Below are positions 32,101 to 61,675 of a DNA stretch of 64,000 bases, in pieces. This DNA comes from Coptis chinensis (Eukaryota > Streptophyta > Magnoliopsida > Ranunculales > Ranunculaceae), in NCBI GenBank assembly GCA_015680905.1, contig CM027377.1, positions 38,650,501 through 38,714,500 on the forward strand, given 5' to 3'. The translations under genes were made by a program, and so were the position numbers. Every line of letters begins with the position of its first letter. Within the stretch, counting starts at the first letter, position 1. The notes under the pieces were generated by a model. That model was not told the origin of the DNA, did no database searches, and saw only the letters and a list, made by a program, of their open reading frames with translations.

Positions 32101-32868
32101 GATGGTCTATATTTCAAGGGATACCTTCAGAATTTTGGAAATTTAGAGCCAGAAGTTATAGAGTAGAACGGTGTTACAATAATCAATCATAAATCTTTTT
32201 GAATTAAGGACGGAAAATCCTTCTGGCTTCATACTTACTGTACAATTTTGTCAATCTAGAGTTGTGTTTGGTATGTTTGTCTTGCTAGTTGCTATGCAGT
32301 TGATACATGTCTGAGATTCTTTACTTAGTACCACACTCGGAATAATTCTTTGTGGTTCAACAACATTGGATAAGTGATTGATCCAAAGGCGATCCTTCTG
32401 GAACGATGTATTTTAGAGCGTACCTTGTAATAATATCTGGCAAGGGGCTGCTTAACCTCAACACATCATAGTAAATAATAACATTTGCCGTTTGTGGCTC
32501 TATTACCTGCTAATACACAAATATTTATGTAGCTATCCTGGTAAGAACTGGGTTGGAGTACAATCTTATATAATATGGTTTTGGTTATCAGGATCTTATA
32601 ATATTTTGAATCTAAATTGGACCTGGCTATACTCTGGATTGTCATTTCTGTAATTGTCAACTTGTTCATGCCATCTTCAACTAGTTTGGTAGTTTCGTTT
32701 GGTGGTGATTCCATCGGGCACTCATCAAATTGGATTGGGCAACCCTAAAAAAAAAAGAAATTTTATAAATTTGCCATATTACAAGTTTGCCATCAAAGCC
32801 CAAGCCCAGCAACCAATTCAACCGGTATTGCCAAAACGAACCCTAAGGTCGTTCGTTGTTTCTATTTC
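32101..32868. other. Downstream region of the transporter
   Basis: 3' flank and probable UTR. No gene. The last ~170 bases (GGGCAACCCTAAAAAAAA onward) may be the left end of the Mutator-like region, but I could not find a matching inverted end to the right. Confidence 0.4.
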
Positions 32869-33450
32869 AAACGACTTGGCCAAGTCGTTTGAGTATACAC
32901 ACAAACGACGTGACCACGTTGTTTGAGTGTACACTCAAACTACGCGATCACATCGTTTGAGTGTAAACTCAAACTACGTGACCACATCGTTTGAGTGTTA
33001 GTTTGAGTTTGAGTTACACTCAAACTACATGGCCAAGTCGTTTGAGTGTATACTCAAACAATATGGACAAGTCGTTTGAGTGTTACTCACACTAACACTC
33101 AAACTACGTGACCATATCGTTTGAGTGTATACTCAAACGACTTGATAAGTCGTTTGAGTATACACTCAAACGATATGGTCACGTAGTTTGAGTGTTAGTG
33201 TGAGTAACACTCAAACTACTTGTCCATGTAGTTTAAGTGTACACTCAAACGACGTGGTCATGTAGTTTGAGTATACACTCAAACGACATGGCCGCGTAGT
33301 TTGAGTGTACACTCAAACGATATGGCCGCGTAGTTTGAATGTTAGTGTGAGTAACACTCAAACGACTTGTCCATGTAGTTTGAGTATACACTCAAACGAC
33401 TTGGTCATGTAGTTTGAGTGTACACTCAAACGACGTGGACATGCACTCAA
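32869..33450. repeat. Palindromic array 1 (34-bp period, spacer AGTGTACACT)
   Basis: About 15 full cores of the form AAACGACNTGGNCANGTCGTTTG, often with the second arm written GTAGTTTG. They are separated by a palindromic spacer GAGTGTACACTC, mostly 34 bp apart, with four longer spacers containing GTGTTACTCACACTAACAC. Cores start near 32869, 32903, 32937, 32971, 33021, 33056, 33100, 33135, 33168, 33214, 33248, 33281, 33315, 33360 and 33394. The section 33064-33226 is one large inverted repeat centred on 33145. Confidence 0.93.
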
Positions 33451-33639
33451 ACGATTCCAAACGCACTCAAATGCATCCAAACGCACTCAAACGATTTCAA
33501 TTGAATTAGAAAAATTGAAACCCGATTTAAAAAATTGGGTTAAAAACAACACAATTACATCAATAAAACTACATGCACTCTGCACTCTTTATCTGTTATG
33601 ACATAATATCTTTATAACCAAGTTAAAACATGTAATCAA

Positions 33640-34330
33640 ACATGCTAAAATCTAAAATAATAATTTGTTTTATATATAAACTTGTTATTATTATTATTTT
33701 TTCAATTGTGAATCATAAACTAGTTTGGGGTTTGGAGTTCAGAGTTCAGGGTTTAGAAATTTCGTACCAACATATTTCACTTAATTATTTGAAATAATAA
33801 TTTGTTTTATATCTAAACTTGTTATTTTTTATTTTATTTTTAAAATTGTGAATTATAAACTAGGTTGGGGTTTAGGGTTTAGGGTTTAGGGTTTAAGGTT
33901 GTTTACAAATTTCATACTAACATATTTTACTTAATTATTCAAAATAATAATTTGTTTTATTTATAAACTTATTATTTATTATTTTCTTTTTCAAATTTTG
34001 AATCATAAACTAGTTTGGGGGGTTTGGGGTTTGGGTTTAGGGTTTAGGGTTTACAAATTTAAATGCAGACATAAAAAAATTTAATTTCAAACATATTTCA
34101 CTCAATTATCCAAATCTAAAATAATAATTTGTTTTATATCTAAACTTGTTATTTTCCATTTTTTTTTATTCAATTGTAAATAATAAACTAGTTTGGGGGG
34201 AGTTTAGAGTTTAGGGTTTACAACTATATATCACTCAATTATTTGAAATATATCAAAATTTCAAATATATATAGAATACTCATTCACTCAGTTTAGAGTT
34301 TAGGGTTTACATAGAATACTCAAGTTTCTC
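33640..34330. repeat. AT-rich tandem repeat with telomere-like runs
   Basis: Four diverged units begin AAATAATAATTTGTTTTAT near 33655, 33794, 33943 and 34120 (spacing 139-177 bp). Each contains AAACTAG/GTTTGGGG followed by GGTTTAGGGTTTAGGG-like stretches, the longest at about 33868-33895. The latter resemble the plant telomere repeat TTTAGGG. Confidence 0.8.
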
Positions 34331-34377
34331 TACATACTCAAGTTTCTTTACATATTATAATACTTAAGTTTCTCTAA

Positions 34378-34617
34378 ATGGAACATGAAGATGAAGAAGA
34401 AGTATTTGAGGTAATGTTTGAGGTACAACAACAAATTAGAGAAGAACAACAAATTAGAGAAGGAGAAAATAGAAGATATGTTGAAAGTGAAGAAGTGGAA
34501 CAAAATGTTGAAGGTCAAGGTGAAGAATTTGAAGATGCGACAAGTCGAGCAAATAAAATGCCGAGAAATCGTCGACGACAAAGTGTAAACCTAAATAATG
34601 AGGTAACACTTGATTAA
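34378..34617 (+). CDS. Short acidic open frame, possible 5' exon of the transposase gene
   Basis: 79 codons, very rich in Glu and Gln (EEEVFEVMFEVQQQIREEQQ), then a basic tail (RNRRRQ). A GT donor-like site (GAG|GTAACA) lies at 34602-34607. If spliced to 35037 or 35264, palindromic array 2 would lie in the intron. No family recognised; the link to the transposase is inferred from position only. Confidence 0.3.
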   Translation: MEHEDEEEVFEVMFEVQQQIREEQQIREGENRRYVESEEVEQNVEGQGEEFEDATSRANKMPRNRRRQSVNLNNEVTLD

Positions 34618-34692
34618 AATGAATACAAAATACTTGATTGATTGAATGAATGAATGAATGGATGCAAAACGAATGAATGCAAAACCCGAGCC

Positions 34693-34957
34693 CAAACGAC
34701 ATGGCTGGGTCGTTTGGGAACACTATAGAACTACATGGCGGTGTAGTATGAGAACACTATAGAACGACATGGCGGTGTAGTTTGAGAACACTATAGAACG
34801 ATATATCCATGTCGTTTGGTTACACTATAGGACTACATGGCTGGGTCGTTTGGTAAAACTATAGAACGACTTCTCCGGGTCGTTTGGGGACACTATAGAA
34901 CTACATGGCCGGGTCGTTTGGACCCTCTATGAAACTACATGGCTGGGTCATTTGGAC
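34693..34957. repeat. Palindromic array 2 (34-bp period, spacer GGAACACTATAG)
   Basis: Eight cores like ACGACATGGCTGGGTCGTTTGG at about 34-bp steps (near 34693, 34730, 34763, 34797, 34831, 34865, 34899 and 34934). They are separated by GGGAACACTATAGA or close variants. The core is the same as in arrays 1 and 3; the spacer is different and not palindromic. Confidence 0.92.
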
Positions 34958-35036
34958 TAAATTTAATTAAAAGTTTTTTTTTTGTGACTTTGAAACTAAA
35001 TGCAAATTGTTTGAGATTCTTGTTTTATTCTTCTAT

Positions 35037-38001
35037 ATGTATAATTCTTTGCCGCTATCTGGGAACCGATCCTCTGCAAACTCGAATGATGTGGATTGTC
35101 AACCGATTTTAAGTGATATAATAGAAATTTTTACTACGAAAGAGGTATGATTGAGTAGGCATTGATTTTATTTTATTTTAAAATTTTCTAAATATAATTT
35201 TATTAGTGTATTAATAATAGTTGTTGTTTTTTATGTGTTTATGTCTTTCATACACGTAGTGAGGCAATCGGTTGGGCAACCGCTAGAGGAAGACAAGTTA
35301 ATGTTGTTGTGGTCATTGAAAAGTCGGAGTGTGCCAAAGGAAACCGAGTAGCAAGATTGAATTTGGCTTGCGAGTGCTCGGGTGTGTATCGGTCACACAA
35401 GAAGGAAGGCGAAGAGAGGGCTAATAAGAGAAGGTCGGGAACCAAGAAATCGGGATGTCAATTTAAGTTAAAAGGTGTTTTCCAACACGGCACTGTCGAT
35501 AGTTGGAAAATTGTCGTTCTTAATGGTGTTCACAACCATCCATTAGCGAAGACCCTTGAAGGACATGCATTTGCTACTTAACTAACCGTTCCAGAGTTCG
35601 AGTATTTGTCAGAGATGAGTAAGTGTGGAATAAAACCTAAACAAATATTGGATTCCATCAAGAATAGGTATCATGATAACATCTCTAGTATATCCCAAGT
35701 CTACACTGCAAGGCAGAAAGTGAGGAAATTGGATATGAACGGTCTCACACAATTGCAGAGATTGCGTGAGTTGTTAGCAAAAGAACATTATTTTGAGGAG
35801 TTGAGACATGATGAGAATACCGAGGAGATAACGGAATTGTTATGGGCCCATCTAGAAGGTGTTAAATTGGCTCAGACTTTTCCAACAGTTTTCATGTTAG
35901 ACGCTACCTACAAAACTAACAGGTATCGGTGGCATTTCGTACAGTTTGTTGGGGTGACTTCAACGTGGAAATCTTTCACCGTGTGTCAGGTGCTGCTTCA
36001 GTCTGAAACAAAAGTCGACTATGAGTGGGCCTTGCATCATTTTAGTGGCTTGCTTGGTGACATAAGCCCATCCGCGGATGATAGGTGTTCCGATAGGGAC
36101 TTGGCCCTGATGAGTGCCGCTGACAGAGTTTTCCCTAACGCACACAAGCATCTATGTAGATGGCATATCGCTACGTGTGTCCTTTCAAAATGTTACGATA
36201 TTTTTCCAACTACAGAACTTGTAGAGAAGGTCCAGTTCTCATGGAACACTGTAGTCAAATCGAAGACGGAGGTTATTTTCCAGCGTAGATGGGATGCTTT
36301 GGAAAAATATTACAGGGTTGAGTACCCCAATTTTGTTTGTTATTTGCGAGAGACTTGGTTTCCTCACAGGGATCGATTCGTATGTTGTTGGACTGACCAA
36401 TACATTCACTTTGGGAGTACAATGACCAATAGAGTTGAAGGGTCTCATGCTCAGGTGAAGCGTGTACTAGGAAATGCAAACTGTCATGATTTTTTGAGTA
36501 TGTTTAGCTTAATCCACCCAATTCTAGAGATCCAGATGTTCGAGATTAGAGCTACCTTCGAGAGAAGTATGATTGTAACTCAGCACCACCACCGGATTCC
36601 TTTGTTTCGTGAACTCAGAGGCCTTGTCTCACGCAAGTGTTTGGACTTGTTATTTGAAGAAATAGATACCCGCGTAAAGTGTGTTAAAGATGGAGAGATA
36701 AGGTGTTGGTGTTATTTGCGCACGAGCCATGGACGCCATGTGCTCATGAATTAATTGAACTTGAAGAGCAAGAGCGGTCCATCCCTTTGACTGCTATCGA
36801 CCCCTTTTGGAAAACATTGTCTGCTTCTCCCAATATGTCAGTGGGTGTTGGTCCCGATGTTGCACCTTCGATGGACTTGTTCATGAATAGGTTTGCAATG
36901 GTTTCTGAAGAAGAGCAGAGGGTTATAACTAGGAAGCTTATGGAGATTGCCGTACCAAAAAGTACATGGCTAGTACCGCCTCGTGAGGAAGCAAAAACCA
37001 AAGGTCGGCCGAAAGGTAGCTGTAGCAGAAAGCTTCCAACTAGAGATGATAACTCTTCAAAGCGAGATCCATCTCATTTTGAACATTCTCAACGTGACCA
37101 TGAAGAGTGGGTCTCGTCACAACCAAACACTACGCCCACCCAAAACACCCACACCACACCAAGAAAGAAGTCTTCTCCAAAAATACCAACCCAAAACATC
37201 CACACCACACCAACAAATAAGCCTTCTCCAAAAACACCAAAAACAACCACACCAAGAAATAAACCTTCTCCAAAAATACCAAAAACAACCACACCAAGAA
37301 ATAAGCCTTCTCCAAAAATAGTCACACCACGAAATGTGAGAGATGGCTTAGACTTTGGAAAGACGAGGGGTCCTAAGGATTACGGGTTGGATATTCCTAA
37401 AGAAATGCATAAATACATTGTTAGAGTCCATGACCCTGTTGGCGATGGAAACTGCGGTTATAGAGCTTTCTGCATTACATTAGGAAGAAGTCAAGAAGAA
37501 TGGCCATAGATGAGAAAGGAGTTGTACGAAGAGCTTACTGACAACCTCCCCCTTTATTGTACTTTGTACAATCAAAGTGACGTTTTTTATTCGATGAAGG
37601 AAATCCTACATGAAGAAGGTTACACACCCTTAAATAAGTGGATGAGCATGCCCTTTGCTGGATACTTATTTGCTTCAAGATTTAATGTTGTTGTTCTGCA
37701 TTTAAGAGCTCGTCAGTGCTTCCTTCTCATGCCGCTGAGAACCCAAGCAAATCCTGAGAGAGTGACTCAAGTGTTGGGTAGCGCACATATTGGTGGAAAT
37801 CATTTTGTCAATGTTGAACTTGTTGAAGATTGTCCGGTTCCTCCAGTAATGCGCCAATAGCTTAGAGCTCGATATGATATTGTTGAAAGTTGGAATTTGG
37901 CCTTGACAGCAAGGCAATTGCAATTTATGGCATTGAACATTCCCAATTTAATATGGGAAAACGAGCTCGTTGAAGACCCAACAGTACATGTTATCGACTA
38001 A
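35037..38001 (+). pseudogene. Mutator-like transposase fused to an OTU cysteine protease
   Basis: Exon 35037-35144 (ATG at 35037) joins 35264 onward by GT-AG splicing in frame. Order: FAR1/MuDR-type zinc-binding domain (CECSGVY...GVHNHPL, to 35578); MULE transposase core with LDATYKTNRY (Asp near 35900), SDRDLALMSA, CRWH and the Glu of TNRVEGSHAQVKR (near 36436); SWIM-type CxC...PCAH finger near 36710-36745; Pro/Thr/Lys repeat linker (37127-37335); OTU domain with GDGNCGYRA (Asp/Cys, 37441-37467) and GNHFVNVEL (His, about 37794-37820). Lesions: TAA 35579-35581, a one-base loss near 36736 inside the SWIM finger (GGACGCCA where GGACTGCCA is expected), TAG 37507-37509 (Gln context) and TAG 37858-37860 (Trp context). 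The frame then runs to TAA at 37999-38001. The transposase would cut element ends; the role of the OTU part is unknown. Confidence 0.85.
37127..37335 (+). repeat. 42-bp coding minisatellite in the transposase-OTU linker
   Basis: Three to four units encode PKTTTPRNKPSPKI or a variant. It is low-complexity, positively charged, and separates the transposase from the OTU domain. Confidence 0.8.
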
Positions 38002-38029
38002 GTTGTTTGTATGTTGTCGATATGATATT

Positions 38030-38480
38030 TTGATGTAATTTGTATTTTGATATAATTTGGAACAAGTGTAATTTGATTTGATTTTTATGTTATCAATGTT
38101 AGGGCTTTTATTTGATTTGATTTGGAAATCGAGTAATCGACTAAGTTGATTCGGACGGCAATCGAGTGATTTGGAAATCGAGTGATCGACTATGTGATAT
38201 ATTGATGTAATTTGATATTTTGATGTAATTTGGAACAAGTGTAATTTGATTTTATTTTTATGTTATTTGGAAATAATGTTAGGGCTTTTATTTGATTTGA
38301 TTTGGAAATCGAGTGATCGACTAAGTTGATTCGGACGACAATCGAGTGATTTGGAAATAGAGCGATCGACTAAGTTGATTCGGACGGCAATCGAGTGATT
38401 TGGAAATCAAATGATCGACTAAGTTGATTCGGATGGGCAATCGAGTGATTGACTAGTTGATTCGGACTGCAATCGAGTGA
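38030..38480. repeat. Satellite behind the transposase-OTU gene
   Basis: Nested repeats: a ~180-bp duplication (38031 and 38210, each with TTGGAACAAGTGTAATTTGAT and GTTAGGGCTTTTATTTG), followed by about five ~48-bp units with GAAATCGAGTGATCGACTAAGTTGATTCGGACGGCAATC (in part). Confidence 0.85.
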
Positions 38481-38516
38481 TTTGAAATAATGTTCGTATG
38501 TTGTCAATAATGACCG

Positions 38517-38845
38517 AAACTACACGGTCAAGTCGTTTGGCTTTAATCCCAAACGATCTAGCCACATCGTTTGGGATTAAAAAAAATGACATGAGCAAGT
38601 CGTTTGTATTTTATACCAAACGATGTGACCATGTCGTTTGGTATAAAAGTCAAACGATCTGGCGAAGTCGTTTGGCCTTTATACCAAACGATGTGTCCAT
38701 GTCGTTTGGTATAAAGGCCAAACGATGTATATGGGTCGTTTGGGATTAAAAGAGAACGATCTGCCGAAGTCGTTTGGTATAAAGGGAAAACGATCTGATG
38801 AGGTCGTTTGGCCTTTATGCCAAACGATGCTGGGTCGTTTGGAAA
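38517..38845. repeat. Palindromic array 3 (34-bp period, spacers TTTATACC / TTTAATCC)
   Basis: Ten cores like AAACGATGTGACCATGTCGTTTGG at steps of about 34 bp (near 38517, 38552, 38585, 38618, 38651, 38686, 38720, 38753, 38788 and 38821). The spacers alternate in orientation (GCCTTTATACC then GGTATAAAGGC), so spacer plus flanks is again palindromic. It lies between the 3' ends of the transposase-OTU gene and the mobile-domain gene. Confidence 0.92.
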
Positions 38846-39157
38846 TTTTTTTTTTCAAAATTCATTTTGTTTTTACAACACTTTCATATTCATCAAATTC
38901 CACTTAATTCCATTCAAACATCAAATATCAAACACTCATTCATCAAATTCCATTCAAACATTTTCATTCATCCATTCAAACATCCAACATTCATTCAAAC
39001 ATCATATCCATCCATTCATTCGAAGTTAACAAAATTACAAACCCTAAACTGAAACAAATTACATCCATCAAACTAAAACTGAAACAAAGTTAACAAAGTT
39101 TCAAATAATCCATCCATCAAACAAATTACAAAGTTACAAACTCTAAACTGAAACAAA
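38846..39157. other. ATTCATTCAAACATC-rich stretch
   Basis: Low-complexity repeats of CATTCAAACATC / CATCCATTCATTC and AAACTGAAACAAA. No gene. Confidence 0.6.
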
Positions 39158-41473
39158 TCAACTATAGCGCCCACCAATGTACTTGCACCTAGTTAAGTTA
39201 TGCGCTGTTGAAGGAGGACCTTGCTTCCTCCTCGGCATATCATTCCCGACCAATTGCAGACCTCTCTCTAGCAAGCGACTGGTTTCATCGATGACGCCGT
39301 CATGTCGAAAAAAGGAAAATCAAGATAAGTTACCAATCGAATGCAAAAATCACGCAGTTAGAAACTCAATTAAAAATCACAATACTTACAATCGGTGAAC
39401 GGTTAAGTGTCTCCAGGGAGGGATGAATAGGAAGAAGCTCAGGGTTCACCAAAACTACATGAGAATTCCTCACATACCAAGTCATATAGTTTTGATGACA
39501 CTCCCATGGATAAGACGAGATAGGTCCTTGGTTGCAGGGTTGGATCAAGTGATTCTGCCACGACTCCCAGTAAAGTGGCCCAATATTGGTCCAGCTCACC
39601 TCATACCTGCGTCCTGCCACAGTTCTTGTTCTCCAATTTGGTATTGAAGGATCTTTAGGTACAAGCTGTACGTGACCCAACTGACGCACCACCCTTGCGA
39701 CAGCGTAAAGCTCGACAATGTTGAAAAAGCATAGCAATCCCTCAAAAAATGCAATGTCATCGATCGGGTTTGTATCTCTGACATTTTTGTAGGGATGCCA
39801 AACAACTTGAAACAAAATCAAATGTGTCATTAACAACTCCAATGATCAATTACTAAAAAAAATAAATATAAACAAACTTAAATACTTACATACATTGAAT
39901 TTAATACTTATATTGAACTCATTCAAATCATCAATTATCGCTTGATAAAACTGCAATGCATACGTTGTATCATAATAGTGTGGAACAACTGGGATGTGTC
40001 TATGAGCACGCGACTGAGACGAGATATAGTTGAAGTTTGGGACTGTCATGAATACCGGAAAATACTCATAGATCCATGCCTAGATATACACAAATAGTTA
40101 ATATATTGATAGAGTAATAAAATTAACATTAAAAAAAATAAACTCTAAAATACTCAAGTTTTACCTGTAGAAGAGTCATATAGCCTGTAACCCCTTTCAC
40201 CTTCACACATGTAGCAGCCCCGAGACCTCTATATAAAAACGCCAAAATTGTTGCTCCCCATGCATACTCTTCTATCTCACTGAATTTCAACAACGGCCTC
40301 AGATAACATATAAGCACTCCAGTCCCAGACTTGTCAGTAAAAATGGCACATCCAAAGAAAAACAGGATAAAAGCTCTAACAGTCCGTTGAACATCCTGGA
40401 AACTCGAGGCCTTCTCCACCACCTTCCCAGCAGCATCACATATAGGGCTATCATGAACCTTGTTCGCAAAATGCTTCCGAATGAATTCTAGCCTTACTTT
40501 TGAAGTGAACCTGCTAGATTCCATCTCCGCCCTAATCAAATCAATAGGGAGCCCCAGACCAAGATGTAGGAGATTTATCGATTGTTGTAAGTTCAGCTCA
40601 CTGTCCCCTTGCACCGCTCTTCCTCTAACTGTGACTCCACAGATTTGGACAACATCGTCCAAAGTCACAGTCATCTCCCCAACTGGCATATGGAAGGTGT
40701 TGGTCTTCGGATGCCATCTCCACAAACCAGAGATCAATGGTGGATCCATATGCTCGTGATAACCTTCCATGAGATCAAACAACCCGATCCTTCTCAACCG
40801 CGGCAAATTTAGGAGACTTTTCACATTCATTTTTGAAATCCCATTGGGATAACCGCTAAGTGTGAAAACACACTTCAACGCTCCGCGATCCTCACGAAAC
40901 AACCGAAAGCACGCATTAGATATATATGAGCGAAACAAAAGATTTTGTAAAAGAAAATCAAAGTACACAAGAAAAACAAAATATTACCCTTCTCTCCCAA
41001 ACATCGCGAGCGACATGCACCGCATAGTCATACAACAACTCTGACTCATACGGGCCTCCCCATACACACCTTTTTTGAAACTCCAAATCATCATTGGATT
41101 TTCTTACGAAATCAATACGGAGGTGCTTCTTCCACATTTGGTGGTGCGTCTTCTACCACATATTCTTCCACATCATCATCCTGCTCATCCTCCTCCTCAC
41201 TCTCCTCTTCTACTATACTCTTCCCTTTGTCCATATTTACATCTAAACCTACATTAGTATCACTATCTACACTATCTTCACTAAACGAATCAACCTCAGG
41301 AACCTCTTTTTCCAAATGGTCCCCTCTACTTGGCCGATCTTTGTTAAGCCGTCACGCGCTTTGTCTTTTCTTCCAACTGCGTCACCGCTAGAGGAACCGC
41401 CACCAAACAATTTCTTAACACCCTTGAATGTAGTTTTCGCTACATTCTTCACATTCTTTGATCGAGGACCCAT
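39158..41473 (-). CDS. Plant mobile domain (MAIN-like) protein, damaged
   Basis: Minus strand, start ATG at 41473. Exons: 40988-41473, 40165-40890, 39890-40079, 39390-39805 and 39158-39304. Exons 2 to 4 join in phase, and exon 5 is 49 codons including the stop. Exon 1 is basic, then acidic (EEESEEEDEQDDDVEEY). Exon 2 has the mobile-domain core: LISGLWRWHPKTNTFHMPVG, DDVVQICGVTVRG and GAATCVKVKGVTGYM. Exon 4 has WHPYKNV...RRYEVSWTNIGPLYW. PMD proteins act in silencing and meristem maintenance and are often carried by transposons. Damage: two frame breaks in exon 1 (one near 41353, fixed if CCGTC was CCAGTC; one near 41117), and the exon 5 acceptor reads CGA at 39305-39307 where CAG is expected. 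The gene converges on the transposase-OTU gene. Confidence 0.8.
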
Positions 41474-42784
41474 CGCTACAAAGAAAAATAAAACAAGTAT
41501 TAGTAAACCATATTTAAATAAACAATGTACAAAGAAAACCACTAGAAAAAAGAGATCATCCCAGTCGTAAAACTAATATACTTATAAGCTTGCTATGATA
41601 ACTCCAAGTATATATGAAGAAATAGAATGAGGCGTTACACTATCCAAATTCTATCGAATTTTGGGCAGAGTTTCCTTTGTTTAGTCAACATTTCGTATAC
41701 TTAAACCTGTCATAACCTGGAAATCAATAATGACATCCTTCCAACAACCATATGTACATAACACCCTATAAAATATTCAACCCACAATATAATTTCTAGC
41801 CACATAATAGGTGGACCCAAGTAGAAGGAAAAGATAGACTTCCAAAAGAAAAGTTTTTGTTCTTTCAAAACGCCATGGTTATATGTCTTGTAACTTGTTA
41901 ACAATATTAACAGTATTAAGAAAGGACAACCACTACAAGTTACAAGAAACTATTAACAGATGTCAAAGCTCGAACAACTGATTATTTACTGACATGTGAG
42001 ATCGAACAACCATATGTACATATAACCTAATTTTTACACGACAATGAAAATGTATATATATACAAGACTGTTTCTGTATGAACCGTCATTTATGTACATT
42101 AAGTATTACAACAAAATAACTGGACTCTCTCTACAACAAAATGAACTTGACTTTGTCCCTCGTCAAGCATAGGGAAACCACAAAAAAAAACCACCTTGAT
42201 TGTACATTCAGTAAATTTGATAACCAAAGAAAGAGCTTCTCACCTATAATGCTTTACCGCTTCAGTTTTGTTCCCCTGTATCCAGACCTTAAGCAAGTAC
42301 TCGTAAAAGCTGCATGTGATCAAGGTCATTACTCATTAGTCAAGACTCAAGAACATAAGCAGTATGAAAGGTGAGTAACAGAATGTACAGAAACACTAAT
42401 CATAAAATGGTAAAAGTATCTTCTCTTATAACATCAGGCCCTAAAGGAAAATACTAGGTATGAAAGATGAGCACTATGAAAGTTTAAGCCGTTGCGGTAG
42501 AATGCTAAGATTGCTAGGGCTATTGAATCAAAAGATTGCGGTAGAACTAAAATGACACAGACACTTAGCCACCAGTCATCAAAATATGCTAAATGCCGCA
42601 CCAAAATCATACAAGGAATCATTAAATATGCACCACTTTTAGCTGTTTTCCAATCCTTTTAATTCACAAACAGTAGTACAGCCCTACAGAAAAACCAACC
42701 AACCCAAGTTTTAATTTTCTTGCTCTTTTCTCTTTACTCTTTTCTCTTTTGTCCCAACAAGTCTTGCAAGATAAATACGTAGTC
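41474..42784. other. Intergenic stretch
   Basis: No convincing gene. The open frames are short and resemble nothing I know. I saw no array cores and no Mutator-like terminal repeat here. Confidence 0.5.
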
Positions 42785-43084
42785 ATGGAACATTTTAGAT
42801 CCAAGTCATGTGGTGATGATAAGATGCAGATAGAGAGTTATACATGAGAAAGACAAACTTCTCACGGTGTGCATGGTTTTAGAAGTTACAGTACTTCTTA
42901 TGCATCTTCTATGCCACAAGTTCAGATGGATAACAGAGAGATGAAGTTTAAAAAAGGTCAGGGTGGTGGGTCATCTTCTAAAAATTGGAGTTTCAATGAT
43001 CCTGAGATACAAAGGAAGAAAAGGATTGCTAGTTACAAGCTTTATGTTGTTGAAGGCAAGATGAAAGGGTCTTTCAGGAACTAA
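42785..43084 (+). pseudogene. DUF3511-family pseudogene
   Basis: Starts MEHFRSKSCGDDKMQIESY, has a TGA at 42845-42847, then continues in the same frame with FRSYSTSYAS and SSSKNWSFNDPEIQRKKR / VVEGKMKGSFR, the conserved core of this small plant family of unknown function. The frame stops at 43084, where family members continue for about 20 more residues ending in a WW-rich tail. Two lesions and the lost tail make it a relic. Confidence 0.8.
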
Positions 43085-44177
43085 AATGCTAGGATTGCTA
43101 GTATATAATTTTTTACTAGAATGCTAGGATTGCTAGGCACGGATTGTTGTGAAGTCTCTACCTAGTTCTTTCTTCTATCCTGATTATATATATGTTACCA
43201 TTTCCACCAAAAAACTAAATAAGAGCAAGAGAACCAATGAGCCTTGCCACCGATTACCAGCACCCACATGCACCTCTATTCTTCTCTATCTCAAGGGATA
43301 GAACCAATCAACTTTTCTTACATTTACCCCCAACGACAGCCTAGCACAATAGCTAGCAACTTATAAAGAAACTTGCACTGGACTTGTATCGTTTTGAAAA
43401 CTTGGTATGGTGTGCGTCTTTGTGATGCCTCCAGCCATAGTATGTAATATTGTATTTTTACGGCGATATGCTAGTGTTGATATTTGTAATATAATTTGCC
43501 AGTCCAGTGCAGTGCTCGACTAGCTAGTGCTGCAATTTCAGCCAAAAAACACAACTCTAACGGACGGTTCTGCTATGCCTCCACACCTACCTTGTGCTCG
43601 ACAAATTGAAACATGTTTCAACAATTTTTTTTTACGGTGAAGTCGGAATATCTCAAAAACAGTTGTTCTCATTGTTTTTTACTTTGCTTTCTTAATTCAG
43701 GTAACCAATAACCAAGAAATTTGTTCCAGACCAGAATTCCAACAGGAGAGAGTAAGAAATTTTGTTCAAGACCAGAACCCCCACAGTAGAGAGTTAGTCA
43801 AGAATTAAAACACATAAAACAAAACAAAATGACAAATAAACTATTAGTTATCACTATTGTTGAACTTCAAACGGAATAAAACATAAAGATTACAGTCTTC
43901 CAACTTTCCACTTCAACTACAGAAATAATGCCAAAAAGCCCAAAATATGTTCTCACAGCTACAATCAGAAACTACATGCACAAAGAGACTAAAAATACAT
44001 TGTAACCACTGGTTACAAAATATATGCACACAGAGATACACAATAATTAATTTGTACTAAAACATGTACATTACAAGCCTTCCAACTCCCCACTTCAACT
44101 ACAGGTACATACCAAAATATGTTCTTAAATTTGAGGGGGAGTTATAGTGGGTCTGGAGGTACCCTAAGAAAATTAGA
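43085..44177. other. Intergenic stretch
   Basis: Short direct repeats AATGCTAGGATTGCTAG at 43085 and 43120, with a related copy near 42502. Otherwise nothing recognised. Confidence 0.5.
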
Positions 44178-44345
44178 GTGGACAGTGTATACCATCAAAA
44201 GGTTTTAACAATTGGTCTGGGTGCTTGCTCTGAAATTGGTTTTATTACAATGGGGAGAGAGCTTCACGGTTATGCTGTTCATAGATGTTTTGATGGATTT
44301 GATATTGTTAAAAATGCATTGATCACAATGTATTCAAGGTGCAAT
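44178..44345 (+). pseudogene. Pentatricopeptide-repeat gene fragment
   Basis: About 55 codons resembling one to two PPR motifs: LGACSEIGFITMGRELHGYAV followed by VKNALITMYSRC (quoted in part). PPR proteins bind organelle RNA. The match ends at about 44345 in an unrelated repeat (ACTCGCAATACACTC). There is no start, transit peptide or further repeats. Confidence 0.7.
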
Positions 44346-44560
44346 GATAAAACTCGCAATACACTCAAACGATATGTATTGCGACTTGTAATACATACTC
44401 GCAACTTGCATACACACCCACAACTCGCAATATATACCAAGAACTTAACAGACTAAGAACTTAACAGACTAAGAACTCAAGATTTTTTGATAGTTCCAAA
44501 CATACTAATCTAAAAAAGAAACACACAAAACACAAAAACAAACATGATTGTGAGTTTGTT

Positions 44561-44719
44561 GTAGATGCTCAGGAAATTCAAAACCACTAAAATATTGTGA
44601 TCAAAATTCAAAAGGGCTACCTCAGAGGGCTAACAATGGCAAGCTGGAGAGTTAGGGAACCAAGTCAAAACAAGCGACAATCAGCCAGTGTGCGTGTTGT
44701 AGATGCTCAGGAAATTCAA
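44561..44719. repeat. 23-bp direct repeat pair
   Basis: TTGTAGATGCTCAGGAAATT (first 20 bases) occurs at 44561 and at 44697, 136 bases apart. Confidence 0.8.
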
Positions 44720-44939
44720 TACTCCATTGACAGCCACAATTCTAGCTATTGAATCACCTGGTAAAATTGTTGGGAGTTTTCAATTTAGAGGTGAGAAACT
44801 CGAATTGAGAAACTCGAACGAATTGAGAAACTCGAATCTAGTTTTCAATGACAACTTTCAACTTTCAATTTGGGGTTTTTTAACGGTGAGAAACTCGAAT
44901 TGTTGGAGATTTGTGGTAATTCAATCGGGCACTCGAATG

Positions 44940-45135
44940 TTTGCACACGAATTGAAATTGGGGGGTTTTTTGTTAGGGTTTCGAAGGGTTTGGGCGAAAG
45001 AGATGACCGGTAAGGGTAGGTTTTCCCGGTTTCGCAATTTGGTGGGGGGGGGGGGGTATATTGGGCTTTGTTGTTTGGGCTTGGGCTGGAGGCTGCCCGA
45101 TCTAATTTGAGTGGCGCCCAATACAGGACTCTTTA
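44940..45135. repeat. Dispersed repeat, copy A
   Basis: About 200 bases similar to 55000-55193 in the same orientation. They share TTTTTTGTTAGGGTTTCG, AGAGATGACCGGT, GGCTGGAGGCTGCCC and a CAATACAG-ACTCTTT end. It contains a 13-base G run. The pair brackets the RING-CH/CACTA region. Confidence 0.8.
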
Positions 45136-46451
45136 TAAAAGAGTGGTAACTAGTTACTTATAATAGCCGGTTCTTTATGCATGGTAACTTTTATTTTTTT
45201 GGTAAAGTAATGAAAAAAACACACTAAAAAGGTGATCTGTTGAAGATTTTTTTCCCTTTTTTTATTCGGATTTTTTCATTTAATTAAGATTTAGTTTTGG
45301 TTTTGGAAATGATCCTAAACTCTTGAATGGTAAATTTTATAACTTTTTTCTTAATTTTGAGCTAGGCAAAACATATCCTGAAATATTAGGAAAATTTGTG
45401 ATATATAACTTTTTTCTTATGTGGGGCATTTAGTTCAAGAATTCTAATGGTCAATATAATTTGTAACCTTAACAATTTTGGTCATTCAATAAAGTTTTCA
45501 ATTCTATGCTTTCAAGTTTCAAATGATCAATTAGTTTTTTTTTTTTGCTAAAATGATCAATTAGTACGTTACGTATTGAATTACATCAATTGAGGGAAAA
45601 TCTTTTGTAGTCTTGCCTAGTGGTGTCCAATAGTTCAATCAAAGTGGGTCTACTTGTATTATCAAGGAGAGACAAAAAGCTCAAATGTAGCCATTCTCTT
45701 TTCAGAGTCTAGACATTTAATAAAGACTTACAATACTGTATGATACATTGATACCATGAATGCCATCCTATTTTAAGGTGCAAGTTCAGAATTTCAGATA
45801 CAAAATTTCCAAAAGTCTCTATATTCCGACAAGAAAGACCTAAATTTTCAGTGATATCTACACTTTTCGGCACATTCCAGTACTTTTAGACCAAATTCTT
45901 CCTAACTGAATTTCTAATGGAACTTGTGTTTACGCACTAAGTTTAGAACAATATTAGAAGTTTAATCCAAGGTCGTTAAAATGGAGTTCTTGGGCCAATA
46001 ACAAGGATTAATGATCGATTTTTGTCATCAAGGACTCAGGGAAGAGTTCTCAGTGCTAGTGGAAGGTTGACATATAAACAAACTCATTGTCGTTGAATTG
46101 GTCCCATTAGAAAAGCATAGATACGGTTGGTTTTTGTAGGCATGATCTCCTAAGTAGAATCTATGATAAACCAAATTGCATACCTCAACCAAGTTGCATA
46201 GCTCTACCCCTTTTAGAAGTTGTTAAACATAAAGAGTACTCTAAATATAATTGGTGACCACATCTTGTATGTGCCTAGACATAAAGATAGCAGCTATAAC
46301 ATTTTAATAACACTTGGGGTTACCACTTCCACCAAGTGTGTAGGGACAAAGTGTGACTAACCTAATGATTTGGTTTGCTAATTTTTTTGAAAAGCTGTAG
46401 TGTTATTTCTATATATTATTAATTCTCTGTTGCATTTATTTTTCTTTGGTA
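45136..46451. other. Intergenic stretch / upstream of the RING-CH exon
   Basis: No gene. An acceptor-like TTTTTCTTTGGTAG ends at 46451, directly before the RING-CH exon. Confidence 0.5.
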
Positions 46452-46671
46452 GGTTCAAGATATAACTAGAATACTGAGGAAAGAAGATTGGGTCAACAAA
46501 AGAGACAACAAACCCTCCACCTAGATATACCCCCAAGAACTTTGGGTGTCTCGTCTCTAGAGTTTATGAAAATAGACATGCCCCCAACAGCAAGCCCAAC
46601 TGCCACAAAAGTAAATTTGCCCCCAGCACTCAGTCCTACTTCTGCTAGATTAAGTGAGTCCCCTGCCCCCT
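46452..46671 (+). pseudogene. RING-CH (RINGv) E3 ligase exon, 5' part
   Basis: Encodes a proline/serine-rich stretch (LDIPPRTLGVSS, DMPPTASPTATKVNLPP and LSPTSARLSESPAPS, close variants) typical of the region before the RING-CH finger in a plant family of membrane-associated ubiquitin ligases. The reading frame runs straight into the CACTA element and resumes at 53371. The RING-CH finger itself was not found, so only one exon is present. Confidence 0.7.
46669..46671. repeat. CCT target-site duplication, left copy
   Basis: Three-base duplication typical of CACTA insertion; the right copy is 53368-53370. Confidence 0.85.
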
Positions 46672-56099: not shown

Positions 56100-59000
56100 T
56101 TTCTAGGTTGTCTTGGGTTTGTTTTTACGTAGTAGTGTATAGAGTTTTTTAAGGTTTCCATAGTTGTGTTTACTATTTCTACGTTTATTTTGTTCTTGTT
56201 GCATGGAGTGAAGAAGTATGTAACATGTGAGGTGAAATTGAGAGTGTTTGATGTGTATATTTTCTTAGAAGGATTCATGTGTCTTGTGGAAGGTTTGTCC
56301 AAGTGCATGAAATTGAGTTTTTGTATGATGTACTTGATGAACAAGTCCTTTTCTAGATCCATGAAAAAATTGACTACTTGAATATGATTCAAGGCATGAT
56401 TCAAAAGCAGAAGAAAACAACTGAGCAATCATTGTGGTGAGCTTGGATTGCCTTTTCAGTCGCGGTTCCGCCAGGTTTTAGCAATGAAGACTCTGTGGAT
56501 TCCACCATAAGCGACGCTTACATGTACCTTTGGCAACTTGGGTTTGTTTTTACGTAGTAGTGTATAGAGTTTTTTTAAGGTTTCCATAGTTGTGTTTACT
56601 ATTTCCATGTTGATTTTATTATTTTTGCATGGAGTGAAGAAGTATGTAACAGGTGAGGTGAAATTGAGAGTGTTTGATGTGTATATTTTCTTAAAAGGAT
56701 TGTGTCTTGTGGAAGGTTTGTCCAAGCGCATGAAATTGAGTTTTTGTATGATGTACTTGATGAACAAGTCCCTTTCTAGATCCATGAAAAAATTGACTAC
56801 TTGAATATGATTCAAGTCATGATTCAAAAGCAGAAGAAAACAATTGAACATTCATTGTGGTGAGCTTGGATTGCCTCTTCAGTCGCGGTTCCGCCAGGTT
56901 TTAGCAATGAAGACTCTGTGGATTCCACCATAAGCGACGCTTACATGTACCATTAGCAACTTGGGTTTGTTTTTACGTAGTAGTGTATATAGTTTTTTTT
57001 AAGGTTTCCATAGTTGTGTTTACTATTTCCATGTTGATTTTATTATTTTTGCATGGAGTGAAGAAGTATGTAACAGGTGAGGTGAAATTGAGAGTGTTTG
57101 ATGTGTATATTTTCTTAGAAGGATATATGTGTCTTGTGTCTTGTGGAAGGTTTGTCCAAGCGCATGAAATTGAGTTTTTGTATGATGTACTTGATGAACA
57201 AGTCTCTGTCTAGATCCATGAAAAAATTGACTACTTGAATATGATTCAAGGCATGATTCAAAAGCAGAAGAAAATAACTGAGCAGTCATTGTGGTAAGCT
57301 TGGATTGCCTTTTCAGTTGCGGTTCCACTAGGTTTTAGCAATGAAGACTCTGTGGATTCCACCATAAGCGATGCTTACATGTACCGCCAGCAACTTGGGT
57401 TTGTTTTTACGTAGTAGTGTATATAGTTTTTTTTAAGGTTTCTATAGTTGTGTTTACTATTTCCATGTTGATTTTATTCTTTTTGCATGGAGTGAAAGTA
57501 TGTATGTAAGGTGAGGTGAAATTGAGAGTGTTTGATGTGTATATTTTCTTAGAAGGATTCATGTGTCTTGTGGAAGGTTTGTCCAAGCGCATGAAATTGA
57601 GTTTTTGTATGATGTACTTGATGAACAAGTCCTTTTCTAGATCCATGAAAAAATTGACTACTTGAATATGATTCAAGGCATGATTCAAAAGCAGAAGAAA
57701 ACAACTGAGCAGTCATTGTGGTGAGCTTGGATTGCCTTTTCAGTCGCGGTTCCGCCAGGTTTTAGCAATGAAGACTCTGTGGATTCCACCATGTTTAGCG
57801 GCTTACATGTACAAAGAACTTGGGTTTGTTTTTACGTAGTAGTGTATAGTTTTTTTTAAGGTTTCCATAGTTGTGTTTACTATTTCCATGTTGATTTTAT
57901 TATTTTTGCATGGAGTGAAGAAGTATGTAACAGGTGAGGTGAAATTGAGAGTGTTTGATGTGTATATTTTCTTAGAAGGATTCATGTGTCTTGTGGAAGG
58001 TTTGTCCAAGCGCATGAAATTGAGTTTTTGTATGATGTACTTGATGAACAAGTCCCTTTCTAGATCCATGAAAAAATTGACTACTTAAATATGATTCAAG
58101 GCATGATTTAAAAGCAGAAGAAAACAACTGAGCAGTTATTGTGGTGAGCTTGGATTGCCTTTTCCATCCACGGGTTCCGCCCTTGAGTTTTAGCAATGAA
58201 GACTGTGGATTCCACCATATGCGACACTTACATGTACCGCCAGTAACTTGGGTTTGTTTTTACGTAGTAGTGTATAGAGTTTTTTTAAGGTTTCCATAGT
58301 TGTGTTTACTATTTCCATGTTGATTTTATTCTTTTTGCATGGAGTGAAGAAGTATGTAACAGGTGAGGTGAAATTGAGAGTGTTTGATGTGTATATTTTC
58401 TTAGAAGGATTCATGTGTCTTGTGGAAGGTTTGTCCAAGCGCATGAAATTGAGTTTTTGTATGATGTACTTGATGAACAAGTCCCTTTCTAGATCCATGA
58501 AAAAATTGACTACTTGAATATGATTCAAGTCATGATTCAAAAGCAGAAGAAAACAACTGAACAGTCATTGTGGTGAGCTTGGATTGCCTCTTCAGTCGCA
58601 GTTCCGCCAGGTTTTAGCAATGAAGACTCTGTGGATTCCACCATAAGCGACGTTTACATGTACCATTAGCAACTTGGGTTTGTTTTTACGTAGTAGTGTA
58701 TATAGTTTTTTTTAAGGTTTCCATAGTTGTGTTTACTATTTCCATGTTGATTTTATTCTTTTTGCATGGAGTGAAGAAGTATGTAACAGGTGAGGTGAAA
58801 TTGAGAGTGTTTGATGTGTATATTTTCTTAGAAGGATATATGTGTCTTGTGTCTTGTGGAAGGTTTGTCCAAGCACATGAAATTGAGTTTTTGTATGATG
58901 TACTTGATGAACAAGTCTCTGTCTAGATCCATGAAAAAATTGACTACTTGAATATGATTCAAGGCATGATTCAAAAGCAGAAGAAAATAACTGAGCAGTC

Positions 59001-61675
59001 ATTGTGGTAAGCTTGGATTGCCTTTTCAGTTGCGGTTCCACTAGGTTTTAGCAATGAAGACTCTGTGGATTCCACCATAAGCGATGCTTACATGTACCGC
59101 CAGCAACTTGGGTTTGTTTTTACGTAGTAGTGTATATAGTTTTTTTTAAGGTTTCTATAGTTGTGTTCACTATTTCCATGTTGATTTTATTCTTTTTGCA
59201 TGGAGTGAAGAAGTATGTAACAGGTGAGGTGAAATTGAGAGTGTTTGATGTGTATATTTTCTTAGAAGGATTCATGTGTCTTGTGGAAGGTTTGTCCAAG
59301 CGCATGAAATTGAGTTTTTGTATGATGTACTTGATGAACAAGTCCCTTTCTAGATCCATGAAAAAATTGACTACTTGAATATGATTCAAGGCATGATTCA
59401 AAAGCAGAAGAAAACAACTGAGCAGTCATTGTGGTGAGCTTGGATTGCCTTTTCAGTCGCGGTTCCGCCAGGTTTTAGCAATGAAGACTCTGTGGATTCC
59501 ACCATAAGCGACGCTTACATGTACCGTCAGCAACTTGGGTTTGTTTTACGTAGTAGTGTATAGAGTTTTTTTAAGGTTTCCATAGTTGTGTTTACTATTT
59601 CCATGTTGATTTTATTATTTTTGCATGGAGTGAAGAAGTATGTAACAGGTGAGGTGAAATTGAGAGTGTTTGATGTGTATATTTTCTTAGAAGGATTCAT
59701 GTGTCTTGTGGAAGGTTTGTCCAAGCGCATGAAATTGAGTTTTTGTATGATGTACTTGATGAACAAGTCCCTTTCTAGATCCATGAAAAAATTGACTACT
59801 TAAATATGATTCAAGGCATGATTTAAAAGCAGAAGAAAACAACTGAGCAGTTATTGTGGTGAGTTTGGATTGCCTTTTCAGTCACGGTTCCGCCAGGTTT
59901 TAGCAATGAAGACTGTGGATTCCACCATATGCGACACTTACATGTACCGCCAGTAACTTGGGTTTGTTTTTACGTAGTAGTGTATAGAGTTTTTTTAAGG
60001 TTTCCATAGTTGTGTTTACTATTTCCATGTTGATTTTATTCTTTTTGCATGGAGTGAAGAAGTATGTAACAGGTGAGGTGAAATTGAGAGTGTTTGATGT
60101 GTATATTTTCTTAGAAGGATTCATGTGTCTTGTGGAAGGTTTGTCCAAGCGCATGAAATTGAGTTTTTGTATGATGTACTTGATGAACAAGTCCCTTTCT
60201 AGATCCATGAAAAAATTGACTACTTAAATTTGATTCAAGGCATGATTGAAAACAAACAAGTGAGCTTGGATTGCCTTTTTCAGCGGTTTAGCGAGGTTTT
60301 CCGTGGATTCCACCAAAAAACATGTGAAAGAACTTGGGTTTATTTTACGTAGTAGAAGTGTATGAGTTTTTTAAGGTTTCCATAGTTGTTTACTATTTCC
60401 ATGTTGATTTTATTATTTTTTGCATGGAGTGAAGAAGTAAACGGTGAGGTGAAATTGAGAGTGTTTGATGTGTATATTTTCTTAGAAGGATTCATGTGTT
60501 TTGTGGAAGGTTTGTCCAAGCGCATGAAATTGAGTTTTTGTATGATGTACTTGATGAACAAGTCCCTTTCTAGATCCATGAAAAAATTGACTACTTAAAT
60601 ATGATTCAAGGCATGATTCAAAAGCAGAAGAAAACAACTGAGCAGTCATTGTGGTGAGCTTGGATTGCCTTTTCAGTCACGGTTCCGCCAGGTTTTAGCA
60701 ATGAAGACTCTGTGGATGCCACCATAAGCGACATTTACATGTACCATCAGCAACTTGGGTTTGTTTTTACGTAGTAGTGTATAAAGGCCTTTTAAGGTTT
60801 CCATAGTTGTGTTTACTATTTCCATGTTGATTTTATTCTTTTTGCATGGAGTGAAGAAGTATGTAACAGGTGAGGTGAAATTGAGAGTGTTTGATGTGTA
60901 TATTTTCTTAGAAGGATAAATGTGTCTTGTGGAAGGTTTGTCCAAACGCATGAAATTGAGTTTTTGTATGATGTACTTGATGAACAAGTCCTTTTCTAGA
61001 TCCATGAAAAAATTGACTACTTGAATATGATTCAAGGCATGATTCAAAAGCAGAAGAAAACAACTGAGCAGTCATTGTGGTGAGCTTGGATTGCCTTTTC
61101 AGTCGCAGCTCCGCCAGGTTTTAGCAATGAAGACTCTGTGGATGCCACCATAAGCGACACTTACATGTATCGTCAGCAACTTGGGTTTGTTTTTACGTAG
61201 TAGTGTATAGAGTTTTTTTTTAAGGTTTCCATAGTTGTGTTTACTATTTCCATGTTGATTTTATTCTTTTTGCATGGAGTGAAGAAGTATGTAACAGGTG
61301 AGGTGAAATTGAGAGTGTTTGATGTGTATATTTTCTTAGAAGGATTTATGTGTCTTGTGGAAGATTTGTCCAAGTGCATAAAATTGTGTTTTTGTATGAT
61401 GTACTTGATGAATAAGTCCCTTTCTAGATCCATGAAAAAATTGGCTACTTGAATATGATTCAAGGCATGATTCAAAAGCAGAAGAAGACAACTGAGCAGT
61501 CATTATGGTGAGCTTGGATTGCCCATGATTCAAAAGCAGAAGAAGACAACTGAGCAATCATTGTGGTGAGCTTGGATTGCCTTTTCAGTCGCGGTTCCGC
61601 CAGTTTTAGCAATAAAGACTCTGTGTATGTCACCATAAGCTACACTTAAATGTACTGTCAGCAACTTGGGTTTCT
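56100..61675 (+). repeat. Tandem array of ~425-bp exon/intron-like units (13 copies)
   Basis: The marker ACGTAGTAGTG recurs at 56127, 56552, 56975, 57409, 57834, 58262, 58688, 59122, 59548, 59972, 60348, 60769 and 61195. Spacing is 421-434 bp except one 376-bp unit. Each unit holds splice-like borders and open segments: a TTTTCAG acceptor, then 25 codons including PGFSNEDSVDSTISDAYMY and a CTTGG|GTTTGT donor, plus a second segment with AHEIEFLYDVLDEQV and IQGMIQKQKKTTEQS. The 71-codon frames seen in each unit (plus strand, MFTISMLIL) are another frame of the same repeat. Units 2-5 and 6-9 match in order (period ~1,710 bp). Confidence 0.93.

Follow-up and report, generated by a model that had tools for sequence, protein, structure and literature searches.

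A 22-bp palindromic core, repeated with a 34-bp period in three arrays within a predicted Mutator-like element of Coptis chinensis, probably marks clustered docking sites for a protein encoded by the element. The best candidate for this protein is the transposase with its FAR1-type zinc finger, and we put the probability of this reading at about one half. It is based on the specificity of the core, the fixed places of the arrays in element copies, the sharing of one core between two families and its retention in mobile elements that consist of an array between two terminal inverted repeats (TIRs). The arrays were found in a 64,000-nt stretch of contig CM027377.1, hereafter called the window, and the features of the element are collected in Table 1.

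Table 1. Features of the array-bearing element, in window positions
Feature	Position	Strand or orientation	Details
Predicted Mutator-like element	~32704-45132		arrays, transposase gene and convergent PMD gene
Left TIR (GGTGATTCC...)	32704-32800	+	homology of L006, L019, L020, L022 and L024 begins at 32703-32713
Array 1	32869-33449	both	15 core units, spacer GAGTGTACACTC; holds a 129-nt inverted repeat
Transposase exon 1 (inferred)	34378-34602	+	ATG at 34378, 75 codons, then GT donor
Array 2	34694-34953	+	8 core units in a single orientation, spacer GGAACACTATAG; inferred intron 1
FAR1-type (WRKY-GCM1/AFT) DNA-binding domain frame	35207-35581	+	Pfam FAR1 1.8e-7, AFT 5.6e-6
MULE transposase domain	35582-36754	+	Pfam MULE 3.4e-19; at least 106 scored genome matches
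C-terminal part: tandem-repeat linker and OTU-like tail	36688-37860	+	broken by stop codons in the window copy
Array 3	38517-38842	both	9 core units and one shortened, spacer TTTATACC/TTTAATCC; between convergent genes
PMD gene, several exons	39366-41472	-	Pfam PMD 2.6e-32 (40129-40983) and, below cut-off, 3.4e-7 (39366-39845)
Right TIR	44960-45132	+	homologous ends in L012, L034 and L036 (near 45129-45140); aligns with left ends

The clear core units of Table 1 were counted in the window at up to 6 mismatches, and two shortened units, near 33135 in array 1 and near 38823 in array 3, were read by eye. The first-pass annotation had described three arrays with about 33 copies of the core and a spacer specific to each array. 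Both points are borne out, with 15 + 8 + 9 clear units, the two shortened ones and spacers that match the description. Its statement that the units are nearly always 34 bp apart holds for array 2 (7/7 spacings) and for array 3, where the nine clear units at 38517-38809 are separated by 34 bp in seven of eight cases and by 33 bp in the other, but not for array 1, in which nine of the 14 spacings are exactly 34 bp and the others are 45, 45, 45, 51 and 67 bp. The arrays had also been said to surround the transposase gene. This does not apply to array 2, which sits between exon 1 and the FAR1 exon, in an inferred intron. The inverted repeat of array 1 (94%) has its arms at 33015-33143 and 33147-33275. 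Weaker inverted repeats are present in array 3, and none of 30 nt or more was found in array 2.

Other tandem repeats are found in the same noncoding parts. A 150-bp repeat with telomere-like GGGTTTA runs (33654-34060) lies between array 1 and transposase exon 1, and 49-bp and 180-bp repeats (38023-38450) directly precede array 3.

Comparison of the window with itself yielded only chance-level matches for TIRs, and the element ends came from copy-to-copy comparison. The left and right ends of several copies align with each other and form an imperfect terminal inverted repeat. A right end at ~41506, suggested by early copies that stop there, was discarded when three more copies moved it to ~45132. 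No target-site duplication was found by eye around the window copy. Positions 3414-4560 of L035 are 92% identical to window positions 45578-46669, beyond the right end of the element, yet L035 is devoid of 42527-45577. The shared flank might be a duplicated flank or another repeat.

Pfam searches of seven open frames of the window element detected FAR1, AFT, MULE, ZSWIM RNaseH-like and PMD domains, together with others below threshold. Exon 1 has tblastn matches of 70-97% identity in 14 other loci. The FAR1-type frame, which is terminated by a stop codon in the window copy, also weakly resembles yeast AFT2 (4lmg, E 0.012). A 42-bp coding tandem repeat (37138-37320) lies in the linker that joins the MULE domain of the transposase to its tail; VANC proteins likewise carry tandem peptide motifs in their variable parts, according to the sections of PMC5735166 consulted. 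The possible OTU identity of the tail is weakly supported by a Peptidase_C65 match in the window copy (E 0.15) and, in the family-B relative, by matches to C65 (E 0.27) and to the OTUB2 structure (E 0.87), all below cut-off, and by a DGNC motif read by eye. The first-exon start of the PMD gene was placed by eye. Mean dN/dS, calculated over partly decayed copies with stop codons skipped, is 0.37 for MULE, 0.62 for FAR1, 0.47 and 0.66 for the PMD pieces and 0.75-0.84 for the OTU-like part; as far as such ratios go, they show the MULE and PMD frames to be under purifying selection. Relative to the window, L018 has a dS of 0.16 in the transposase and of 0.51-0.54 in the PMD gene, and it looks like a chimera of two lineages.

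Judged by its MULE domain and TIRs, and by the 8-bp duplications of gene-less family-B relatives, the window element is a Mutator-like element. With a PMD gene predicted within its bounds, it is a PMD-bearing MULE. The pairing is recurrent: 32 of the at least 106 listed transposases have a listed PMD gene no more than 12 kb away, and 31 of these 32 pairs are convergent.

The core is highly specific genome-wide. With up to 2 mismatches it has 6047 forward matches in the 936-Mb genome, vs a single one for the pattern read backwards. The pair of half-sites from adjacent units, GTCGTTT-N12-AAACGAC, occurs 942 times (reversed control, 5), vs 91 times with a 13-bp gap (reversed control, 1), so that the 12-bp gap is strongly preferred. 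Neighbouring units are 34 bp apart in 207 of 336 cases, among 385 units in 26 sequences. When places at set offsets from strong cores were scored regardless of their own core match, 51% of the 611 at 34 bp reached 14/20 matches, vs 0-3% at eight other offsets.

The arrays have stereotyped places in the copies read: array 1 adjoins the left TIR, array 2 follows exon 1 and precedes the FAR1 exon, and array 3 separates the two convergent genes. Within the limits of each 10-kb stretch, the order at gene-bearing loci is array 1 (GAGTGTACACTC), array 2 (GGAACACTATA), transposase, array 3 (TTTATACC) and inverted PMD gene, with arrays missing or irregular at some loci. The array 1 spacer recurs in the same place in L019, L020, L022 and L024 and is inverted in L006, and array 3 is found in the same place with the same spacer in L007, L012, L013, L017 and L025. 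Array 2 with its own spacer is present in all four loci picked by their transposase, window excluded, and between four and eight cores separate exon 1 from the FAR1 exon in 14/14 other loci that match both.

Arrays picked by exact array 2 units have a listed transposase or PMD gene within 13 kb in at least 41 of 71 cases (chance, ~0.007 per array), a lower bound from lists of at least 106 transposase and at least 139 PMD matches. Near these units, the listed transposases are all downstream on the same strand (19/19), and the listed PMD genes are all downstream on the opposite strand (34/34). This proximity, with a constant order and strand, supports the earlier proposal that the arrays are part of a single element family, which has a transposase and a PMD gene. 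Six 5-kb stretches at family-A right ends (L031-L036) contain no cores, so that in long family-A copies the arrays do not mark both ends.

Twenty loci picked by an exact core all hold at least two core units, L009 having just two, 80 bp apart. Compared with the window proteins, 13 of them have clear matches, two have weak MULE matches and five have none. The genome-wide check proposed with the first-pass annotation was whether the core always flanks MULE or PMD genes. It does not in the strict sense, with seven of these 20 loci lacking a clear gene match. Moreover, among the listed N12 sites, 50 were typed by their spacers as 30 B, 8 A1, 5 D, 2 A2, 2 A3, 2 E and one other, and the 30 have the family-B spacer of the gene-less elements sampled. 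Nevertheless, these cores are still in the same transposon families. Of the first 51 core places listed, 18 are within 12 kb of a listed gene.

Family B is represented by L021, the transposase of which is 48-70% identical in pieces to that of the window. It has the same core with a different spacer (GGGACTAAGTCC); its arrays flank the transposase on both sides, with a PMD piece beyond. The TIR of L021 is matched by that of L008, a 1069-bp TIR-array-TIR element with an identical 8-bp duplication on each side. A genome search with the family-B TIR gave 649 + 631 matches (control, 0). To avoid picking by core, we fetched 16 of 100 listed matches at even steps. Thirteen of these 16 ends are followed within 1.3 kb by 2-18 cores, the shuffled-sequence control giving 0.03 core matches per stretch, and the other three (L037, L047 and L049) have no core within that distance. 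The opposite TIR is in reach of nine ends, and eight of the nine are TIR-array-TIR elements, the exception being L037. The ends without cores, one of them with its opposite TIR, indicate that arrays are not strictly required for mobility.

Several of the TIR-array-TIR elements are only 0.6-1.1 kb long. Among the nine in which 8-bp target-site duplications were measured, these are perfect in four (L040, L046, L052 and L008), match at 7/8 positions in L048 and are poor (0.33-0.70) in L038, L041, L044 and L051; the observed mean was reached in none of 2000 permutations. A gene-less family-A element, L053, has both TIRs and two short arrays, one of which, near the right end, has yet another spacer. 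A putative third family (L011, L014, L015, L016 and L023) was rejected. It corresponds to an amplified long repeat that contains MULE and SWIM fragments and a nested, array-bearing family-B element. Its copies are ~88-94% identical over kilobases, and the several sampled loci that share it are not independent.

If the arrays are docking sites, autonomous copies would encode a sequence-specific protein that serves every copy in trans, even the gene-less ones. The transposase is the likeliest putative binder because it is the sole protein searched that has a known DNA-binding domain (FAR1/AFT). Its FAR1-type (WRKY-GCM1) zinc finger might recognise both AAACGAC half-sites of a core, in the form of a dimer or of several subunits along the array. 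Loading of arrays close to the ends, inside intron 1 and in the convergent intergenic region would concentrate the transposase on the element, and it might also regulate or de-repress the genes of the element, like TnpA on En/Spm and VANC on VANDALs. Gene-less relatives that keep little beyond ends and arrays suggest landing pads for the protein of full elements. The internal places of arrays 2 and 3, where sites for end recognition only are not needed, count against the docking reading.

A bolder version, which we regard as doubtful, is that sequence-specific anti-silencing evolved a second time, independently. In this case, the arrays would recruit the FAR1/MULE transposase, the OTU-like tail of which is a possible deubiquitinase, with or without the PMD protein, and silencing marks would be removed from all copies that bear arrays, also from those that have no genes. 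The protein would hold the core constant, and the spacers would turn over, perhaps escaping small-RNA matching.

VANDAL elements are Mutator-like elements. By analogy with their VANC proteins, the PMD protein rather than the transposase might bind the arrays and strip silencing marks, and it is the main rival as putative binder. The arrays are placed where VANC21 binds VANDAL21, namely in introns, intergenic regions and terminal noncoding parts, as described in the consulted part of PMC5735166. PMD capture by MULEs is described in the portion of PMC5418596 consulted, where an anti-silencing service by the captured genes is speculation only. The apparent purifying selection on the PMD gene beside the transposase, and the recurrent, mostly convergent pairing of the two genes, are also in line with a role of this kind. 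Nevertheless, Pfam found no DNA-binding domain in the PMD pieces searched, and families A and B have a common core, whereas VANC targets differ between related families. We consider this reading to be unlikely.

It is distinctly less probable that the arrays are bound by a transcription factor or chromatin protein of the host and that the element uses them as promoter or insulator modules. Such a role could account for arrays that flank the transposase gene and sit inside it, and for the short, fixed contact pattern of the core. However, in the samples read, the core occurs only in these elements, it came as arrays of two or more units at each of the 20 core-picked loci, and the arrays are kept in gene-less mobile elements.

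The arrays could also be functionless tandem repeats that drift like ordinary satellites and are carried passively in the transposon. Slippage amplifies repeats easily, and the neighbouring 150-bp, 49-bp and 180-bp repeats are in the same noncoding parts. This idea bears on the earlier claim that the core is selected and the spacers are replaced, for which we compared rates with types assigned by spacer, loosely so for B, and with 37 of 385 units unclassified. Cores of different spacer types differ by 0.28-0.32 per site, barely above the 0.19-0.29 found within types, whereas the spacers differ by 0.57-0.72. Between loci within a type, the values for core and spacer are 0.187 and 0.291 in A2, 0.242 and 0.404 in A3, and 0.292 and 0.499 in B. 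In A1, they are 0.258 and 0.198. Thus, the claim is right in that the same core is held in at least four well-supported types with different spacers, but it fails for array 1, the spacer of which is at least as constrained as the core, as passive drift would allow.

Because finding units by their core favours the core, the test was repeated from the spacers. A core is present on at least one side of 74/100 A1, 37/56 A2, 14/18 + 14/19 A3 and 24/56 + 26/58 B matches, with cores at 0.13% of random places as a control. This persistence of the core in units found blindly to it, and its retention in gene-less mobile elements, make passive drift improbable. The arrays had also been thought to have been amplified separately. 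This holds for the family ancestor; it does not hold for individual copies, because the spacer at a given position does not change among the copies read.

Lastly, it is very improbable that the arrays work as foldbacks or hairpins through the secondary structure of RNA or DNA, for instance as a source of small RNAs: the long inverted repeat of array 1 and the weaker ones of array 3 would suit this reading, but array 2 has none of 30 nt or more, and the dyad positions that are free to vary do not covary. These are core positions 8 and 15, which are nearly free (0.07-0.11 bits, the arms having 0.8-1.7 bits) and for which the covariation is 0.27 vs 0.28 expected, with the same result within each spacer type. 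A selected hairpin should pair at free positions, and on this ground a hairpin function was rejected; free dyad positions without covariation favour a protein contact site. Overall, covariation is modestly in excess at positions 6/17 (z 3.4) and 7/16 (z 3.5), the excess at 7/16 coming from A2 and unclassified units when examined per spacer type.

As candidate docking arrays, those of Coptis can be set beside several known systems. Like the VANDAL/VANC targets of Arabidopsis, as presented in the parts of PMC5735166 and PMC10398659 consulted, they consist of a short, tandemly arrayed motif in introns, intergenic regions and terminal noncoding parts, with a copy number that varies between element copies. 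Unlike them, the Coptis motif is a 22-bp palindrome with a 34-bp period, common to two families, and a PMD gene takes the place of VANC; no VANC-type DUF1985 or DUF287 was found among the seven window-element frames searched with Pfam. As with the TnpA sites of En/Spm (CACTA), a repeated motif that serves as a subterminal cis-determinant there is kept in gene-less derivatives, and the En/Spm deletion derivatives move with proteins supplied in trans (PMC2613891, in the part consulted). In contrast with En/Spm, the Coptis arrays are also in intron 1 and between genes, the target-site duplications are of 8 bp, and the superfamily is another one. Nor do the frames searched include a separate repeat-binding protein of the CACTA type, the Coptis transposase being a MULE.

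Muta1 and other Aedes MULEs likewise have subterminal short tandem repeats in variable numbers, many gene-less derivatives and 8-9-bp duplications (PMC5225508, in the part consulted). Their repeats are 12-bp direct repeats inside the TIR, whereas those of Coptis are long palindromic units with type-specific spacers in at least three places. MULEs with a captured PMD similarly combine MULE and PMD within one element. According to the consulted part of PMC5418596, which does not mention arrays in describing them, the PMD of these MULEs, from grasses and Amborella, is fused to the transposase, unlike the separate, convergent PMD gene of Coptis. MULEs with tandem TIRs share the feature of end-associated repeats that may aid transposase recognition, but they repeat whole TIRs rather than a 34-bp palindromic unit (PMC3310237, in the part consulted).

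The layout combines two known themes, end-associated sites that gene-less elements keep (TnpA, Muta1) and promoter, intron and intergenic arrays (VANC21 in VANDAL21). We found no description of this array by title or abstract opening in the literature searched, most of it outside subscription journals, and we do not claim that it is absent from print. One core, one period and fixed places amount to a testable cis code for a clade of MULEs that captured a PMD gene, and the gene-less TIR-array-TIR elements are natural minimal substrates for binding, transposition and methylation tests. Should an anti-silencing factor indeed be recruited by the arrays, they would provide a case outside the VANDALs and possibly a sequence-specific tool to change chromatin.

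Two minor observations concern other parts of the window. A 434-bp tandem repeat of 9.7 copies with 94% matches occupies positions 56112-60252. Within the element, a lone 18-bp exact match to array 1, in its ACACTCAAACGATATG region, is located at 44359-44376, ~750 bp inside the right end.
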